From NCBI GenBank assembly GCA_033064195.1, contig JARBJD010000088.1, positions 1 through 64,000 on the forward strand: a stretch of DNA of 64,000 nucleotides, given 5' to 3'. Of this stretch, positions 50,344 through 61,567 are shown piece by piece. Made by a program: the position numbers and the translations under genes. The notes under the pieces are model-generated. The model was not told the origin of the DNA. It saw only the letters and a list, made by a program, of their open reading frames with translations, and made no database searches. This DNA comes from Blattamonas nauphoetae. Taxonomy: Eukaryota > Preaxostyla > Oxymonadida. Numbering within the stretch: position 1 is the stretch's first letter; each line of letters begins with the position of its first letter.

Positions 50344-50678
50344 TTTAAACAAACCGAGGTTCCTTCCGGCGAGATATGGTCAAATATGGGTTTGGTCCAA
50401 ATTGTGAACCGAATGGAAAGATAAACACTTCAATGAGAAACATTTAACTCCCATTTTATTCCAATCACAGGGATAAACCTCAGTGATGGAGACTGTCAAC
50501 GAACGACGAAGGAAGGAAACAAAAAACTTTGTGCTCGAACACAGAAAATCCTCAACGAGGAGCAAAAAACTGTGTCAAGTCTTGAAAGAAGAGTTCCAAA
50601 GGGAACGAGAGAGAGTGGCCATCTGCTTCCTCGCGGCTTGTGGAAGCAGGTTAACGAAGGAACCTCGGTTTGTTTAAA
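50344..50678. mobile_element. Possible piggyBac-type MITE with TTAA ends
   Basis: Perfect 23-bp inverted ends: TTTAAACAAACCGAGGTTCC (plus TTC) at the left and its complement at the right, with TTAA at both boundaries, as in piggyBac target duplications. About 335 bp, no coding capacity. The TTAA could be part of the inverted repeat rather than a duplication, so the assignment is tentative. Confidence 0.5.
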
Positions 50679-50728
50679 GCACCGCCCCTCCGGTAGGTGC
50701 ATCCCAAACCTCGGTTCCTTCCGGCGAG
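50679..50728 (+). repeat. 50-bp GC-rich dispersed repeat, copy 1
   Basis: GCACCGCCCCTCCGGTAGGT and onward to CCTTCCGGCGAG. A perfect inverted copy lies at 61518-61567. It directly abuts the TTAA-flanked element. Confidence 0.8.
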
Positions 50729-53019
50729 CCTTGAAAAGATTCAATAAGAAAGAAAGAATGAAGTGACAATTAAGAGACATCCTTTTATTGGCTTTGCCAT
50801 GTTTGACCCTCCTCGAGAGAGTGACCGTGATTCCCTTTTTCAAAGGGCTGCCATCAAGCCGCGGAACGATTCAGACTCTTCGAAGTCGTGAAGAGGAGAC
50901 CAACTGTGAAATGCGTCAAGCGCGAATAATGAAAGTGCGCAGTGTTCCCTTTGAGTTCAATTTAGATGGTCTCATCTCATCATCATGGCATGTTGCATCT
51001 TAGCGAGCTGATTCTGGACGGACAGTCGGTGGAGTTTTAGTGTCTGCTGTCTCTGAATCGTTTCTTCCTTTCTTTGATGTCCATCATCCCTCTCCTTTCC
51101 GACTTGCTTTCTCTTGTGCCCAAATGCCCAATTTGTTTTCCTGATCGAGTCTGCTTTGTTCGGCTTGTGACAGATTCCGCATCTTTGCCTTCATCGCATT
51201 CAGCTTTTACTTGGATCTGTTCCCAATAAGTCCAAAATACAACTCCCGCTCGAGAAACTTTCTTTGAAGCTCATCATTTTTTCAATCTGCTTCCGACCGA
51301 CGTTTTTCTGCTTCTTCTGCAATCTGCTCATACATATGTTTGTTCTGTTGTAAATCCCGAGTTCGGCCCTTGCCAACCACTGTTTTTCTTCGTCAGCCCA
51401 GCTCTGAAGGAGTGATCGATGTCTCTGACATCCTTAGTCCAGTCTCACATTCAGAACCGGTGGTCAACGAATAGTTGTGGGGTCTGAGGCCCCTCCCTCA
51501 GGCTGGATCGCTTCCGCAGATACTCCCTATTTCCATGACAACGAGAGCCACCGACACAATCAATCCAACTGAGGATTGGGCAGCGTGAGTCTTCTGCTGG
51601 CGGCTGACCTAGTCGTCTCTGTGACACGATTCTGAGTCTGATCTTCCACTTTCCCATGACAACGAGAACCGCTGACACAATCAATCCAACTGAGGATTGG
51701 GCATCATGAGCCCTTGTGTGAGCGGCTGACCCAGTTGTCGCTGTGACTCGATTTTGTGTCTGCCTTCGCTCCTTCTGTGAAGGTGTCATCGCAGTGTTAT
51801 ATGCTTCGCAAAATTCGTTCGACAGAAGCAGCGCCAGTTTAGTCTCACGGTTCGACGTGGACTTCAAACTCAAATAAGTTCTTTGGAGTAAACATCTTTC
51901 CTGTCGTTCCAGCTAAGCCTACACTGTGGTACTGTTCCAACGGCCGAAGTGTGCTCGTCGGATGAACAGTTGTTTCCGCTAGAGTTCCACAAGAGAAGGG
52001 ACAGAAGAGTATCAGGACTCAATACAGGAGGGGGTGTTGCACTTTCGCCGGTTGTAGATAAAAGCAGGATCCTGTCACGATGGGAATGCTTCTCACTTTG
52101 TAGAGACGATGACCAACTTGTCCGTTCTTGTCTGCGTCGTTGTGAAAGTTAAACCTTTCCTTCTATTGGAAGTTGATGGATGAATTTAAACTGTGGATGT
52201 GAATGCATCATTCTCTGTTCCTGTCGAACCCTCTCGCTATCTTTCTGAATTCCAACGTCGACTGAATTGTCGTTGACGTTCTTGTGATATCTATGTATCG
52301 AAGTTTTGTCCCCTGTCGGAGTGAGGTGACTTTTGTTCAGATGCCGGAATTACATAACTGCTGTAGCATGACTGAATGAAAATTGCCGCATTGACGATAA
52401 TTGATGCCATTGTCGTCTCCGTGCTGTCATGAAAGATGACGAGGCTCACTGATTGAGTTTCATGACGGAGAGGCTGAAGGAGGGCTACATTTCCGTGCGC
52501 TCCATCTTTGAACCCAGCCGATAGTCAGATCGGCCGCAACTGGAACTTGAAATGCGTGGAGAACAGTTTCCAGATCAGTCTGACCTTGTCTGCTTCAGCG
52601 TGACATCTTTTGAATTGCTTTGTCGAATCCATCCGTCTTCGGTTGGAATCAAATCAACAGCCAACTTGTAACAAGTGAAACAGCGTTGCCTGGAGCTGGG
52701 TCAGCTGTAGGTTGTTGAGATGAAGACCGTGGAGGCTTGGTTTCAAGGGGAGAAAACTCTCCAGATTCGATTGAGTCTGCCAATCCGACTGCTACGAAAG
52801 TTCTTGACATCCAAGCCAGCACCGAAGAAGGATGGAACGGAGCTCGTGGTAGAATACATTCATCCCAAGGAGACATTTCGATTCGTTATTTCGTAGAGTG
52901 AACTGCCATTGGTCGATGTACACTGCTATCGAACTCCACCACCTTGGACGATTGAATATGCAGATGCGGAGTCAACATAGTTGTGTAGGAAAATGATGCG
53001 ATGAAAGAGTACTGAATGA
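50729..53019. other. Mostly unrecognised DNA with a coiled-coil relic
   Basis: The minus strand at 51400-51080 reads as a broken coiled coil, with 'YEQIAEEAEKRRSEAD', 'LQRKFLERELYFGLIGN' and 'LDQENKLGIWAQEKA' in one frame interrupted by TGA and TAA codons. It is probably a decayed cytoskeletal-type gene piece. The rest (51880-53019) shows only short frames. Confidence 0.35.
51531..51773. repeat. Tandem duplication, about 121-bp unit
   Basis: Two adjacent units starting at CCATGACAACGAGA (about 51532 and 51654) share CACAATCAATCCAACTGAGG and are about 80-85% alike. The offset of about 121 bp is not a multiple of three. Confidence 0.75.
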
Positions 53020-53028
53020 GAACTACAC

Positions 53029-53562
53029 GGGTACCTCAATTTTCAGGGGAAAAACTCGAGCTCAGGGGAAAAACTCGATCACAGGGGAAGATCTCAATCA
53101 CAGGGGAGAATCTCAATCACAGGGGAAAATCTCAATCACAGGGGAAAATCTCGGGCCACAGGGGAAGAATCTCAAGGACAAGGGGATTGAAGGTGGATCA
53201 ATTTTTGAACATGTGTGGATTAGGGAGTTAGAACGCGGGACTTTCAACCCTCGGTCCCGGGATCGAGGTTGGTCATCGGCACTTTTTCTCGTTTTTGAAA
53301 CATTTTTGTCAACGATCACAGATTCTCTCTCTTTTCAATCCGATTTTTTGTTTAAACTTTTCAGAAAGGCTCTGCGATGAACAGAATGTTGCTGATGAGC
53401 GGGCAATCACGATCCTGCTTTTTTCTCAAATTCAGACATTATTCTCCAAAATAACTTAACATACAACATAATAATGACATGTTTGATGCTTCTTCTTCAT
53501 CTTTTCTCATTGTCCATTCACCCATTCTCAAAACTTTCGCATTCGTTTTCCCACTCTCGATC
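53029..53562 (+). repeat. Left TIR of the Mutator-like element
   Basis: Begins GGGTACCTCAATTTTCAGG. The first ~160 bp is a minisatellite of about eight 19-bp units (CAGGGGAAAA core followed by CTCAATCA or variants). The rest is unique sequence, ending CCACTCTCGATC. Confidence 0.9.
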
Positions 53563-54249
53563 TGTTATGAACCAACGAAAGAACTTTCTCATCTCTCTCA
53601 TATTCTCGATCACACACATCCCGATCTCTTTTCGCCGAAATGTATATATCTGTTGGGTGGTTCTCGTCCTGTATGAACTCTTTTTTCATGTCTCTACCCT
53701 GTTGTTCTCTTCCGTCCAAATCTCAAGTATTTGATCCACTTCCACCCTTCATCATCGAATCTTCTTTTGCTTTATGTGTGTCGTGCCAGAGCAGGACGAA
53801 TGCATTGACGCTTTCAGGCTGATCGGTTGCATGCAGAGATCTCTTCAAGATTGGAGAAGTTCATTTTGAAATGCTGACCTACCCATCATCATGTATGTTT
53901 GACAGTTTATACTTCATTATTTGAAGCTGATTTGCATGTCGAATGCAGCTAAGTCACAGACACAATCCGACTTTAATAACATGTGAAATGAACACTGAAA
54001 AGCCAGTACCAACCTTCGACAACAATCCTGAAAAGTGAATTGTATGCTTCTCGTTGCTAATGTCTGCCAGATCAAGAACCGGCCAGTCGTCGCAGATCTC
54101 CTCAGAGTGATGTTCAATGCTTTAATTCACACCTTCTGTGAAAGAATCTGAAAGACCACCGCCAAAATTCTCTGAGTTGCTCCCGGAAAAGGCAACCACA
54201 AAGGTTGAGGAGGAAATTCCAGCAGAAGGTGGTGATTTGAGAGAGGGAG

Positions 54250-54790
54250 CGACTGTGGAGTGAATGCGGTGAGGAGGGCGAGCTGCAGAAGGAATATCAA
54301 CACCAGTCCAAACCTTCAACACTCTGAGATCGATGACAGCACTGGAGAATGTGGAGCTGCCGACTGACGCACTACCCGTTGATGCTGTCCTGCGGCGAGC
54401 AGCAGCGAGTGTATATACACTGTTTGACTTTCCCACCCTCTCTCTTTCACACCTTCCGGTTTCTTTTCCTTTTCATTCACCTCTTCCCTTCTCTTCACTC
54501 CTCTCAGCACCATCGCACGAGCATTGGCCAACAGCCCCGGTCTGCTTCTGCTGGACGAGCCGACAAGCGACCTGGTTGCGTATACATCGTGGTATGTGTT
54601 TGTGCGGGACGTGATGGTGGCATCCGAGAAGAGGATGAAAGAGGAGGACATAAGGAATACGCTTCTGATGAAAAAGGCGCTGGCCGGTTTGCACAGTGTG
54701 AAGACATGGAAGAAGAAGGACGGACAAGCGGGAGGGATGTTGGGGAGGAGGGCAAGGGGAGGGAGGGGAGTGTATGCACAGTGATTGGAT
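54250..54790 (+). pseudogene. ABC-transporter ATPase fragment inside the MULE
   Basis: The MacB/LolD-type ABC ATPase is recognisable in pieces on the plus strand: 'TFNTLRSMTALENVELP' (Q-loop and the helix after it, about 54315-54365), 'LSCGEQQRV' (the LSGGQ signature with Cys for the first Gly, about 54384-54410), and 'TIARALANSPGLLLLDEPTS' (signature helix and Walker B with the catalytic Glu, 54508-54570). A 97-nt GT-AG intron (54411-54507) separates signature and Walker B in correct phase. The Walker A part is absent, about 40 residues are missing between 'ENVELP' and the signature, and the frame shifts there. The H-loop is not seen. The retained intron indicates DNA-level capture, not retrocopying. 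Confidence 0.7.
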
Positions 54791-55028
54791 GATTCCAGTG
54801 TGCTCTTCTGTGCACGAACCGTGGGACAACGATCATGTTGCGTTCTGCAGTAGGGAGGACGAGGAAGGGATGGCGTGTGTGTTTGAGATTATGGTGGAAG
54901 AGCAGGGCGACACAAAGACTCTCTTTCGCCAATTTTCACTCAACGCGAATCCATTCTCGAACCAGCGGATGGGAACGATTCGGATTGATATACAGGAGAG
55001 AGTGGGAGAGATGCTCAGATGAAGTGAA

Positions 55029-55745
55029 GTGGAGCGGAAAAGAGAGGATACAGTCCAGATTTTGGTGGAAGCACGAACACAGACACTTTATTCTCCTCCT
55101 CATTCGTCTTCCACATCGAACGTCCAATCAGTCCTCAGCCTCCAACAGACGCCATCCACATCATCAAAGCCACAGTTCATCTCGCAAACTTGCATCTCGG
55201 CTGTCCTGCTCAACTCTTCGCCTCTCACCGACTTGGCTAGCATTGTTGCCGAAGTCGATGCCAACGAAGTGTTCATGCTTCACAAGACGAACATGCTGGA
55301 AGAGATCGGAGCAGAGAACGAGCTGATGGAAAGGTCGTGTGCCGGAATGATGGACTGGATTGGGATGGGCGGGCTGCCAGATGTGGACGAGGAAGAAGAA
55401 GAGAGGCGGAAGGAGACAGAGGCGAAGGAAGAGGAGGAGCGGCTGAGAGAGGAGAGGAAGGAGCAAGAATTGAACAAAGTGGCAGAGGAGACAAACGAAC
55501 AGGAGAAAAGAGCGAAAGAGGCACAACCCCCAACTTCGGACGAACACCCATCTCACATCCCACTCCACTACCGTCTGTGTCGCCGCCCGTCCTCCATCAT
55601 TCCTCTCTCCCCTCCACACGGCCCTTCTCCACCTTACCCCCTCCACATCCTCCCTCGTCCAATACAGCTCGTACTTGTCTCCCTCCCGCCCCATCTCAAC
55701 CAACTCCCTCGCTCCATCAGCGCTGGGGTAATGAGGAGTTACTGA
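55029..55745 (+). pseudogene. Charged coiled-coil frame inside the MULE
   Basis: A 238-residue frame: a Ser/Gln-rich part, then 'NEVFMLHKTNMLEEIGAENE', then a Glu/Arg/Lys coiled coil (55390-55530) and a Pro-rich tail with little structure. Whether it is a captured host exon or a low-complexity accident is unclear; the overlapping minus strand is also open because of the skewed base composition. Confidence 0.35.
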
Positions 55746-56164
55746 TGATCCGAAGCGATGTGCAGGCCACACACAACGAGGATAACAGAGACGAGCTGGA
55801 TCAATACAGCTACAGTCTGCTCGGAGACTATGAGTGATGCGTGGGAGGGTGTGTGGGGAACAAGGAGAAGCGGAAAGAGCTGGACGAGCTTTGGGGAGTG
55901 ATCCGACAAGCGAAGAAGATCACGATTCGTCTCTGATCGCATTGGTCACTCTTCCCGACCAAACACTCAACATTCACATCAATACATGAAAAGACAAAGA
56001 GGAATCTGAAAGCGATGGAAGAAGGAGATGCACAGAGCAGTGTCGCAACAGGCCAGTCGGAAGTGGCTGTGTCAGTGGAGCAGGCGAAGAAGGCACGTGA
56101 GGAGCTGGAGAAGTAGATTGAGTCGACAATGTCTCTTCCATGTGCGATGATCTGAAAGATGATT

Positions 56165-56699
56165 GATCGAGAGTGGGAAAACGAATGCGAAAGTTTTGAG
56201 AATGGGTGAATGGACAATGAGAAAAGATGAAGAAGAAGCATCAAACATGTCATTATTATGTTGTATGTTAAGTTATTTTGGAGAATAATGTCTGAATTTG
56301 AGAAAAAAAGCAGGATCGTGATTGCCCGCTCATCAGCAACATTCTGTTCATCGCAGAGCCTTTCTGAAAAGTTTAAACAAAAAATCGGATTGAAAAGAGA
56401 GAGAATCTGTGATCGTTGACAAAAATGTTTCAAAAACGAGAAAAAGTGCCGATGACCAACCTCGATCCCGGGACCGAGGGTTGAAAGTCCCGCGTTCTAA
56501 CTCCCTAATCCACACATGTTCAAAAATTGATCCACCTTCAATCCCCTTGTCCTTGAGATTCTTCCCCTGTGGCCCGAGATTTTCCCCTGTGATTGAGATT
56601 TTCCCCTGTGATTGAGATTCTCCCCTGTGATTGAGATCTTCCCCTGTGATCGAGTTTTTCCCCTGAGCTCGAGTTTTTCCCCTGAAAATTGAGACACCC
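56165..56699 (-). repeat. Right TIR of the Mutator-like element
   Basis: Inverted copy of 53029-53562, ending at the 9-bp duplication GAACTACAC (56700-56708). Confidence 0.9.
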
Positions 56700-57359
56700 G
56701 AACTACACTCTGAGTCTGATTGGTAGGAAGTGTTCTTCGTGATGGCGGACAAGATGACCGAACTTTGAACTTGAAGCGATTGATGTCTGGTTGAAACCGG
56801 GTTCATCAACAGGGGTTACAACTTCTGTTTTGCACTCCCTGACAACAAAGGATGTCAGATTTGCCATATCTTGTCGAATTGAGGAAATTTGCCTCATCGA
56901 GGTGCGGCTCGAGCGCGTGAAATGAAGAAATATGTAACTCGGTTGATCTGGATGTTTTGCACTGAAAGATGGTTCGGGTAGGAAAAGATTGTGCCGAAGA
57001 TGTGGGATTGGACATTAGGAGGTTCCTACGTGACCGTAACGTGAGTGTAGAGAATCCCCTTCCTGTCGAAAATGACTTTGTCGTCCCACAAGTATCACTC
57101 CCAATTTCCGATATAATCATCAATGCTTTGCTAATTCTTTCTATTACCGAGGAGATTGTCTATTTACATGATAGTTCAGGTCACGTTGTTGTTAAATCAT
57201 GTATGAGCAGACCTTTGACACGGATCTCATCGATCTCAGCTTTTTTGATCTCAGAAAATAACTAGTGTTCAAATTGTTATAAAACTCAAAATAACGAAGT
57301 AAAAGACCCACTATCCGTGTTGAATTATGTTTGCAAGAACTTTCATTGAAATCTTGAGT

Positions 57360-58310
57360 TGAATCGTCCCACAATAACTCTTCTAACCGATCCGGTTGAA
57401 GAACTGGATGAATCACGCTTGTTCTTCGAAAAATTTCTTAATTCCTCCACGAATGATCTCCTTTACCATTTCTCGACGATTGTTTCTCTCTTAGAGTGCT
57501 TTATTCCGCAGGTTTGCATTCGTTGTTCAATTGTTCATTAGTCTTCGAGATTTCTTCTCTTTATCTCGATCTTCAGTCCTATTTTGACTTGGTTAATCTG
57601 TCACTTCCATTATTTCCATCTCTCCCAGATAATCTGTCAGTGACGTGTGAGATCTCAATTGACACGTCGACCCCGCCTCTCTCGAATGACTCCCCATTCA
57701 TTTCTGCGGACTCTCCTCGGATGCCGCTCTTTCTTTGATTGCTGGTACCGATGAACAGATTCTCCGATCGCCTCCAATCGTCCAGAAATGGTTTCTTCTT
57801 TTGGGTTGGTCGTTCTCAACACTGCTGTCTTTAACTGTCACATCGTCAACCGTCCTCTCTCCACACTATTCCTTACGTCCCTGAACGATGCACTGTGACC
57901 AGATTGTCTTTCCCAATCTCGACTTTTTGGCATCTCTGAAACAATTCTCGTTTATTTCGTCGAAATGGGATGTGCACCGCATTTCAGCCGTTCGGAGTCA
58001 TCCACGATTTGATTCAGGATCATCATGCCAGTTGGCTATCCTCTGAATCTTTATTTTCGTTCTTGGAACTGCCCACCAAACAACCCTCCGAAATCGAAGC
58101 ATCCAAACACTCTTGACGACTCTGTTGATAATCACAGGATTTACTTTGCATGGTCCATCGTCAGAAATGGAGCAACTCATTCCGCAACTGATTACGGCAG
58201 TTCAACTGCGAGCTCACATTCCGAAGCGAAACGGAGAGTCAACAGGTCTCGCAAATACCGATCTGATGTTGATTCTTGAAAATTTCCAAGTTGTCTAGTC
58301 AATAGCCGGA
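57360..58310 (+). pseudogene. Unrecognised broken coding pieces inside the hAT element
   Basis: Plus-strand frames such as 57496-57738 ('SSLYLDLQSYFDLVNLSLPL', 'EISIDTSTPPLSNDSPF') have protein-like composition but are short and shifted. No family recognised. Confidence 0.25.
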
Positions 58311-58319
58311 AGAGAAGGA

Positions 58320-60040
58320 ATGACAAAACCCACGAGGCGCTGTTCAGATGTCCCTTTTGGAAGACTCAATGATCACACGATTTCTCGCTCTTTTGGACTG
58401 TGCATGCGTTCAATCGCTTTTCAGACGTTTCAGAACTTCATCACACCAACACTCCTCCAAACGAGCTCTCTTCTCGACAGCACAATCACAGCTCAGACAA
58501 AGACAAGAAAACTGCATCGTGCAGATGGCGAGAACTTGGAGCAGAACAATATCGCACCGAAGGGAATTGACGGACGACTCATCGTCATCAAGAACGGGAA
58601 GAAGGACTGATCGAAGGTGAGTACATCCCGTTCATTCCTGGCGAGGTGAGGTTCAACGAAGGGGAGGAACACCACGTCTTCATCCCTCCAAGCTATATCG
58701 AGACAGCTGATGCTTTCGGAGGATTTGGTGGACTGACCGACCAGATGATGGACAACGAAGAGCCAGAGAAGAGACTCGTGCTGATCCACAACGGGAAGAA
58801 GATGCTGAAGAGGCGAGACAAGGATCCGAAACGATCGTTGGGGGAGGAGGAGGATGAGTTTGAGGGTGAACTTTAGGGGTATCTGTTCGGAGAAGAGAAG
58901 ATAACGGAAGGGAAGGAATATTCCATTCTGCTGAGTCCTTCATACGTCGAAACAAAAGGACCAGGAGGACAGACGATCCTGCGAGGACTGATTGGGCAGA
59001 CAGTGAACGAGGAGGAAGAACAGGAAAGGAAGGAGATGGAAGAGCTGGAGGCTCAGATCGCAGCAGAAGAGGAGAGGATGCAGGAAGAGGAAGCGGCTGC
59101 ATTGGTGTTGGCTGCGTCAACCAAAAAGAAGAGGAAGATTGAACCGGAACGAACGAGATCTTCAGTGTCGCTTCGCCCAGCAAGCAAGAAAGCGAAGAAG
59201 AAAGGAGATCATGACGACGATGCGGACGCGAATAGGATGAAGATGGCGATGGGAGGACATGAAAATCGGAAGCTTACACGAAAAGGACAACCTGACGACA
59301 AGAAGAAGGAGGAGGAGGAAGAGAGACTCGCCAGAGAAGAGACTGAGCGACTGGCGAAGCTGGAGGCAGACAGGTTGGCAAAAGAAGAAGCAGAAAGACT
59401 TGCGAAGGAAGAGGAAGAGAGACTGAGAAAGGAAGCAGTAGAATCTGAGAGAAAACGTAGATAAGAGGAAGATCGAAAGAGAGCGGAAGAAGATGAGAGA
59501 AGACGACATGAAGAGATTGCACGAAAACAGGAAGAGGAGGAGAGACTGAAGAAGCTGAAAGGGAAGAAGAAGAAGGAAGTGGAGGAACGAAAACGTCGCG
59601 AAGAAGAGGAGAGAAAGCGCAAAGAAAAATGCAGACGCTGAAACAGCCGAAGCAGCTGCCAAGAAAAAAGAGGAAGAAGAGGACGACTACGACCAAGGGA
59701 TCAACGGGAAGATCGGAGGAGCAGGAAACAGTCACCTGGGAAAGAATTCACCACACCACACAACACGCACTTCACACCCCTCTCCGCCCACTCACTCTGA
59801 TTCTGTGTTGTTGCATCGACCGAATACTGTTGCGTGTCTTCTTACCGAATCGACGCCTTCTCCATCTGATGGATGGACAGCGAGAGGTGGAATGAGCAAC
59901 ACGTCGCGATCGCATGGACGGAATGATTATGATACGAAAGCAACATCGAGAAGAGTGCGAAAAGGAGAGAGGAGGAGGGAGCGAGAGCGAGGCGAAAGGG
60001 ACGAAAAGAAGAGAAGACGACATCGATTGTCAATCTGAAG
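58320..60040 (+). pseudogene. Broken coiled-coil protein gene inside the hAT element
   Basis: Plus-strand pieces form one decayed gene. Two copies of a globular repeat come first: 'DGRLIVIKNGKK' ... 'FNEGEEHHVFIPPSYIETAD', then 'KRLVLIHNGKKML' ... 'ITEGKEYSILLSPSYVETKG'. A long Glu/Lys/Arg coiled coil follows (59003-59640, repeated 'ERLAKEEAERLAKEE'), then a basic tail ending at 60038. In-frame TAG (58874-58876) and TAA (59462-59464) codons and at least two frame shifts (near 58615 and 59630) break it. The two in-frame stops are TAG and TAA, but the shifts show decay rather than recoding. Role of the parent gene unknown; a cytoskeletal protein is a guess. Confidence 0.5.
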
Positions 60041-60303
60041 TCGTTTGACCCTCTTTTCAGTGTTCATTCTATCACACTACAACCATTTCGCTTTTCAAGA
60101 TTCTTATTTTGACCATTTGATACAACATTGAGACAAATATAGATACGCTTAATTAGGTCATTGATCTCAGTCCCAAAAACTGGAACTGAGATCGATCGAT
60201 CTCAGTTTCTGCTTGATTGATCTCATGTATCAAAGGTCTGTGTATGAGAGATGTAGTCATTCCAGAAGTCCTCGCCAATCGAATTCTTGAACGTAAGTGG
60301 TGA

Positions 60304-61493
60304 TAAGTAGTTTTGGGATCGGAACGTTGATCGCCGCCGTGGAATTGTATGCTAGTCATTGACTTTTCTCCTTTGTTCAGATGACATCCCTCGACGTGCG
60401 CCCTGGCTGCCAACGTCTCTGCTTCATTGCGGGATTAATGGAGCGCGACCACTAGTCACAGTTTTCTTGTTGTACTCAGCAAATCCCTCCAAAGGTTGAG
60501 TCGTCATGTGTCGGGTGTTTTGATTGGCATAACCCAATGTCATTCATGCCGGAGTGTGTCAAGGAACCCAGCAGGTGTTCTTGGATTCCTCGAGATTTGT
60601 CGGAGATATGATGTGAATGAAAACGAGAGTTTGGAAACTGCGGGCGGTTGAAAAGTTGAGTTGCGCAGAGGTCGCGATCAGCGCCATCCTATTGTGCGCT
60701 TTCGTCTTTCATTGAAGATATGGTGCCGCCTGTCAGGTTTTAAGTTGCTTTGAGTTGGATTTTCCGTGTGTCTGACCTCATCGGAATCGGTCGTCGTGTC
60801 CGACAAATAAGGGAACTCCGAATGGCCGGAGTTGGATGATAATTCGTTGTTCTTTTGATATCAACAATCCTTCCTCCTTCGAAAATAATCTGAACGCCTT
60901 TGAGACAGATTGGACTGTCATATTTGTCCTTGTTGTTTTTTCCCTGTCAACCCGCGAATGGAGAAAAATATCGCCCAGAAGGGAAAACGATGATGGTGTT
61001 TGATGGCAACAACTTCGTCAGAAAGGAGATTTGTCGATTCTGAGGCGTTAGTCTGCCATGCCTTGCATTGACACCAGGTAAGTTGGCGCCCCGATTAGGA
61101 ACCAACTGGTTTGAAATAGGAGATGTATCATGAGTACGAGATCTTTGGTGAGCGTGTGAAAACTGGCGAAGTCGACTGATTTTAGGATAAAAGTTCAATT
61201 TGTTCGTGGACAAAGAGAGAGCTTGGCCTTTGCATTGCATCCCTTTAGCGATTGTATCTCCCTAAAGGAAACGGAGTAGGGAATCTGTGTTGTCTCAGAT
61301 GTAGAGGCTTGGGGTGAAATAGGCTGAACAGTCTGAACGACGCGAAGGTTGTTCACAGAAAGAAGATCCCACTGCGTGCTGCAAAGGCTGCTAATTATTG
61401 GTGAAACGAGATCTCGTTGAATTCGGGACAAAGGCGATTGCGAAGGAGGAAGTTAAAACTCTGAAGTGTTTGAATTTCAGAAGTTTCAATTTT
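60304..61493. other. No gene recognised
   Basis: Short minus-strand frames (61240-60947 and 61431-61195) are Ser/Arg/Gln-rich, without a motif. Nothing further is supported. Confidence 0.4.
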
Positions 61494-61567
61494 GACCAAA
61501 CCCATATTTGACCATATCTCGCCGGAAGGAACCGAGGTTTGGGATGCACCTACCGGAGGGGCGGTGC
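61494..61567 (-). repeat. GC-rich dispersed repeat, copy 2
   Basis: On the minus strand the 50-bp repeat (perfect to 50679-50728) is followed by ATATGGTCAAATATGGG and TTTGGTC, a continuation that instead matches 50358-50398. So this copy joins two pieces that are separate at 50.4 kb. It lies 23 bp beyond the stop codon of the pseudokinase gene. Confidence 0.8.

Follow-up and report, generated by a model that had tools for sequence, protein, structure and literature searches.

What kind of mobile element occupies positions 53029 to 56699 of contig JARBJD010000088.1 (assembly GCA_033064195.1) of the oxymonad Blattamonas nauphoetae, and where did its interior come from? The window analysed here is the first 64,000 nucleotides of this contig, which carries the working label C825. 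An initial annotation, made from the letters of the window alone, had described a Pack-MULE-like element with near-identical inverted ends of 534 and 535 bp, a perfect 9-bp target-site duplication, and an interior that held a broken ABC-ATPase fragment with its intron and a charged coiled-coil frame and no transposase. We followed this description through the whole assembly (88,311,006 bases in 837 contigs) and find it highly probable that the element is a Pack-MULE, that is, a non-autonomous Mutator-like DNA transposon (Mutator-like element, MULE) whose interior is built from fragments of at least two host genes. The element and its copies are best filed as a family of Pack-MULEs, in a branch of eukaryotes new to such elements.

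Mutator elements are recognised by long terminal inverted repeats (>100 bp), and those of the window element far exceed this length. Along 534 bp, the left and right ends agree at 531 positions, with 2 mismatches and 2 gap runs. Two blocks of inverted pairing make up the arms, 53028-53424 to 56304-56700 (99%) and 53419-53562 to 56165-56308 (100%), and the 9-bp duplication that abuts them is perfect, as first described (Table 1). A 20-base terminal word, allowed up to 2 mismatches, was found at 79 + 76 sites genome-wide, while its reversed control was found at 0 + 0. The paired recurrence of the ends across the genome, together with the empty control, indicates that they are not chance repeats.

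We then asked how often the element recurs as a unit. A search with the left end (43 matches; best 40 of 182 candidates scored) and a search with the interior (49 matches) have at least 19 loci in common (C825, C101, C378, C778, C483, C572, C135, C83, two on C190, C111, C699, C197, C439, C267, C65, C13, C272 and C236). The initial annotation had allowed that the ends might be two independent repeats that are not paired elsewhere, and this does not hold, since the same ends enclose the same interior, with 9-bp duplications, at these loci. Both ends could be read at 15 of the 19, on which the duplication count rests; outside it are C699, where a contig edge falls within the element, C65, whose left tip is truncated, and C439 and C236, with one terminus each. 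Duplications in the 8-10 bp range of Mutator elements were present at all 15 readable loci, perfect and 9 bp long at 13 of them. At the C13 locus (L024) the duplication is 8 bp, or 9 bp if one terminal G was lost, and at the C272 locus (L025) its two copies agree at 8 of 9 positions.

The inverted ends mismatch each other at 2-19 positions across the 15 both-ended copies, and their tips differ in a fixed way, with one GGGTAC and one GGGTGT tip at every one of these loci (15/15). Two relatives, L027 and L028, have two tips of the same kind, unlike the 15 readable copies. Among the 12 complete copies free of large inserts, pairwise differences amount to 1-38 mismatches over ~3.6 kb (about 1% or less) and 3 to 77 gap runs, with C272 the highest. 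So few substitutions suggest a recent spread of the family, in keeping with the recent movement originally proposed from the likeness of the two ends. Two family copies (L011 and L015) hold one insert of ~4.67 kb each; that one element accounts for the 4.67 kb inserted in the copies on C778 and C83 was rejected, as the two inserts do not match each other.

Next, we looked for elements that could mobilise the family. Among the matches listed for the MULE transposase domain PF10551 none lies on the window contig, hence none lies inside the element; for this transposase family the annotated lack of a transposase is upheld, as expected of a non-autonomous MULE member. Genome-wide, PF10551 gave 100 matches, 4 of them under the curated cut-off. 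We fetched 12 of these loci with 1.5-kb flanks, and five of them (L046-L050) contain the outer 85-165 bp of the window element's end at 82-88%, together with the same 19-bp tandem array; L046, L048, L049 and L050 start with GGGTGACTCAATTTTCAGGGG. A search with the element on C393 (best 40 of 531 candidates scored) located inverted end matches ~10-14 kb from left ends on C393, C151, C21, C288 and C212. The spans on the last four contigs are inferred from match positions, whereas the C393 element (L054, L055; 15401-26038, 10.6 kb) was bounded directly at both ends, which are 92% alike over 250 bp and are flanked by the 9-bp duplication ATCCTTTCA. It contains an open frame of 646 amino acids with PF10551 at 82.3 bits. 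This element is far longer than its transposase frame requires, and three further frames scanned in it had no Pfam match. The presence of PF10551 frames in elements with a closely similar terminus ties the ends of the window element to the Mutator superfamily by sequence and not by appearance alone. The active transposase that, by the initial annotation, may exist elsewhere in the genome has candidates in these open frames.

We next investigated the origin of the interior. For the ABC-ATPase piece, the matches are to an ABC-ATPase gene present on C412 and C29 (80-86%) and to stretches of C220 and C158 (82-91%). The C412 stretch is an ABC ATPase by sequence, with MJ0796 and LolD among its best solved relatives, and PF00005 scored above its cut-off in the C29 copy and weakly, below the cut-off, in the window element itself. 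The intron reported in the first description is kept in the element and is homologous to an intron of the C412 gene, which indicates that the gene pieces were copied at the DNA level. Since the exon encoding KSTLLNIIG was not captured and internal stretches were lost, the piece is not expected to give a working ATPase.

The charged coiled-coil frame also stands, and it can now be given an identity, as part of an Hsp70/110-like gene, so that the interior has two gene sources. Two pieces of the element match a single gene on C434 at 71-89%, and this gene is Hsp70/110-like by a PF00012 match and by hits to BiP and SSE1; C35 has an 85% match to the Hsp part over 94 bp. The ABC piece sits between the two Hsp pieces in the element; no match links the C434 stretch to those on C412 and C29. 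Around the ABC gene on C412/C29 and the Hsp-like gene on C434, the 6-6.5 kb read contained no such terminus, so the search for parent genes proposed at the outset yielded source genes at other loci, with no such ends in these stretches. Both gene-gene junctions have short runs (TCCAA and about CGAT) common to the two sides; they fit template switching and are too short as proof.

Several observations weigh against a Pack-MULE. About 650 bp of the left interior (53563-54217) had no listed match outside the family in the interior search. Within the fetched stretches, seven of the 12 PF10551 loci showed weak likeness to the end (L041-L044) or none (L040, L045, L051), with an end located further out on C212, where L051 lies, by the later search. 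Of the 534-bp end, the transposase-bearing elements have only the outer ~165 bp and not the inner part, and thus the exact autonomous partner may have escaped notice. Inspection by eye placed no PF10551 match (of 100) between paired termini among the 100 of 155 terminus sites listed. Pieces of the chimera also travel without ends, as C447 and C535 (L034, L035) hold a 343-bp piece spanning the ABC-Hsp junction (97-98%), set in ~4 kb of sequence that the two contigs have in common; the stretches read there contain no terminus. Lastly, C220 (L032, C220:39500-40350) has an ABC stretch (90% to C412) joined to Hsp stretches (79-91% to C434) at a point different from that in the element, with some Hsp stretches beyond the element's content and no terminus in its 6 kb. 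Either the ABC-Hsp fusion may predate the window element and have been taken whole, or C220 may be an older relative without its former ends. The simple account of two separate captures by the window element was given up because C220 holds its own ABC-Hsp join. This join qualifies the origin of the fragments from host parents and slightly lowers our confidence that the element is a Pack-MULE.

The C220 join likewise raised the standing of a different explanation, in which a degraded autonomous element carries ABC-ATPase- and Hsp70-like genes as native cargo and captured no host genes. An interior common to 19 loci and the ABC-Hsp join of C220, with no terminus found, would both suit such an element, and some large DNA transposons carry accessory genes according to the available portions of two papers (PMC6431247, PMC12477816). 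Yet longer versions of the genes reside on different contigs, where the sequence read around them contains no terminus, the ABC piece lacks its upstream exon and is flanked by two pieces of an Hsp gene, and the three non-transposase frames scanned in the C393 element gave no Pfam match. We consider native cargo very unlikely.

Fainter still is the prospect that the window element is a non-autonomous member of another superfamily that has GG ends and makes 8-9 bp duplications, with Merlin as the foremost candidate. In the accessible part of one study, Merlin elements have GG termini, duplicate 8 or 9 bp and have inverted repeats of up to 462 bp, and more than 100 Merlin copies are given for Monocercomonoides, itself an oxymonad (PMC8101967). 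However, elements with nearly the same terminus and array as the window element carry the MULE domain PF10551, and the Monocercomonoides Merlin families in that same source have 8-bp duplications and mostly 23-29 bp ends, in contrast to the 9-bp duplications here. A hAT origin was rejected, as the 8-bp duplication of that superfamily is not what most readable loci have (9 bp in 13/15).

We also examined the flanks of the window element. Joined together, they match C257:286296-286896 over 600/600 query bases (601 in the target; 100% as rounded), and 121 bases fetched from C257 equal the joined flanks exactly, with a single GAACTACAC. C257 matches the window at 99-100% only within 50344-61567, two inserted elements excepted (52001-52728 lay outside the queries), and C212 joins the outer flanks directly at 84445/84450, without the repeat unit. 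The idea that C257 is the other allele, lacking the insert, was dropped on these two grounds, and C257 is read as a paralogous copy of the repeat; its site is taken as good evidence of precise insertion, and not of allelic polymorphism. The initial annotation had named interior pieces at the same locus in relatives without the ends as a finding that would speak against it; the comparison made, inside this one genome, shows a C257 target copy that lacks the whole element. With this target and at least 19 loci, movement as a unit is apparent. That the copies are segmental duplications ending in inverted repeats by chance is scarcely credible: C378, C699 and C272 do have the same or a similar flank, probably from one insertion copied with its surroundings, but flanks and 9-bp duplications differ at the other sites, and the precise uninterrupted target already refutes it for the window copy.

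The surrounding stretch (window 50344-61567) is a host repeat unit of ~4.5 kb without its two inserts. It is 99-100% identical on C257 where queried, is not present between the matching flanks on C212, and has inverted runs of ~34 bases near both its ends. The second insert (window 57208-60240) is an element 3.03 kb long that has the ends CAGACCTTTG...CAAAGGTCTG and the 8-bp duplication TGTATGAG at 57200-57207 and 60241-60248, and is hAT-like in these respects. It encodes a highly charged coiled-coil frame, has 97-100% matches on nine other contigs, some of them partial, and is missing from C257.

Table 1. Parts of the Mutator-like element and its target-site duplication, in window coordinates.
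Feature	Position	Strand	Remarks
Target-site duplication, left copy GAACTACAC	53020..53028	.	Single GAACTACAC at the uninterrupted C257 site
Whole non-autonomous MULE element, 3671 bp	53029..56699	+	Left end GGGTACCTC; right end GGGTGTCTC on the opposite strand
Left terminal inverted repeat, 534 bp	53029..53562	+	Inverted-arm pairing
19-bp tandem array, CAGGGGAAAATCTCAATCA type, within left inverted repeat	53044..53171	+	Spacing 19
Hsp70/110-like gene, first fragment	54218..54311	+	85% to C434
ABC-ATPase gene fragment	54307..55011	+	Signature region and LLLLDEP run present; KSTLLNIIG upstream exon not captured; internal deletions
Spliceosomal-type intron GTATAT...CAG	54411..54507	+	Homologous to C412 gene intron
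Hsp70/110-like gene, second, larger fragment (charged coiled-coil region)	54973..56128	+	71-89% to C434
Right terminal inverted repeat, 535 bp	56165..56699	-	Inverted-arm pairing
19-bp tandem array within right inverted repeat	56557..56684	-	Spacing 19
Target-site duplication, right copy GAACTACAC	56700..56708	.	Perfect 9-bp match to left copy

We also compared the age of the capture with that of the spread. Synonymous differences between the element and the parent genes are 0.13-0.23 per site, far above the copy-to-copy values, and the capture therefore looks older than the recent spread, to judge by these divergences; the assembly may lack a closer donor. The ratio of non-synonymous to synonymous differences (pN/pS) against the parents is ~0.44 for the Hsp piece (172 codons) and ~0.41 for the longer ABC piece (110 codons), compared with 0.19 between the two host ABC genes, values that are suggestive of relaxed constraint on the captured pieces and not decisive. 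A third ABC stretch of 23 codons has 4 synonymous and 2 non-synonymous differences, too few for use. The Pack-MULE-like filing is borne out, with a multicopy family, a second gene source, an apparently older capture and a C220 join that may predate the element added to it.

These features are consistent with the following mechanism for a Pack-MULE. Template switching or gap repair would have brought the gene pieces into an older MULE, whether in succession or already fused together. A transposase of the larger, C393-type elements would recognise the common end sequences and move the family in trans, and the near-identical copies would be the product of a later burst.

Two further families have the same terminus and other interiors. 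The C335 family has at least 10 loci (best 40 of 121 candidates scored), and its interior consists of pieces of high-copy sequence, 75-94% to copies elsewhere, mostly 87-91%. The interior of the C601 family contains pieces matching C445 (95%) and C510/C508 (77-90%), which are known as matches and not as genes. Perfect 9-bp duplications were found in seven relatives (L027, L028, L037, L038, L039, L052 and L053). It is conceivable, and we propose it tentatively, that one MULE lineage acts as a recurrent gene-capturing engine, with at least three families of the same termini and interiors drawn from other loci; the ABC-Hsp join on C220 lowers our confidence in this as well. A relative on C826 has a DDE_1 transposase frame inside (L038:2949-4367, minus strand), perhaps a nested insertion.

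In plants, Pack-MULEs can retain introns and combine pieces from several genes. They are reportedly the subject of Jiang et al. 2004. Later accounts, each available in part (PMC6446971, PMC5225508, PMC6431247, PMC3310237), describe plant Pack-MULEs as elements that resemble the window family in their MULE ends, 9-bp type duplications, lack of transposase, host gene fragments and multiple copies. Unlike them, the window family resides in an oxymonad, and its long ends hold a 19-bp tandem array, a kind of array that also occurs in MULE transposase-bearing elements here. Animal Pack-TIRs similarly have non-transposon sequence between terminal inverted repeat ends, and template switching followed by transposition is offered in the available text as the explanation for multicopy cases, whereas those elements are mostly hAT and Tc/mariner and no Pack-MULE was identified there in a survey of 100 animal reference genomes (PMC8277862). 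The TvMULEs of Trichomonas vaginalis are likewise Mutator-like elements in a metamonad, but have short imperfect ends and 10-14 bp duplications; gene capture is not mentioned in the accessible portion of that paper, and the word 'capture' is absent from its main text (PMC2725143). In Pyrenophora, as far as the source was available, transduplication also has DNA transposons multiplying gene pieces outside plants, through hAT and Tc1/mariner elements and not MULE ends (PMC3538342). We found no description of a Pack-MULE or Mutator element from an oxymonad in the open-licence literature, which is not proof of absence in print. The words 'Mutator' and 'MULE' do not occur in the main text of two oxymonad genome papers (one of them PMC10703272), and Monocercomonoides together with Mutator led, among the open-licence texts available in part, to the Merlin paper only.

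Gene capture by MULEs has been documented mainly in plants, and here it appears in a single-celled gut protist. That a metamonad has such a case, multicopy, chimeric and with an intron kept, alongside transposase-bearing relatives in one genome, suggests that gene capture comes with the Mutator mechanism and is not peculiar to plants. The family offers a compact system for the study of capture, and it is also a warning that oxymonad gene counts may include mobile gene pieces. If the gene-capturing lineage proposed above exists and some of its chimeras are expressed, it would amount to a counterpart of the gene-shuffling system of plants, far from them on the eukaryotic tree.

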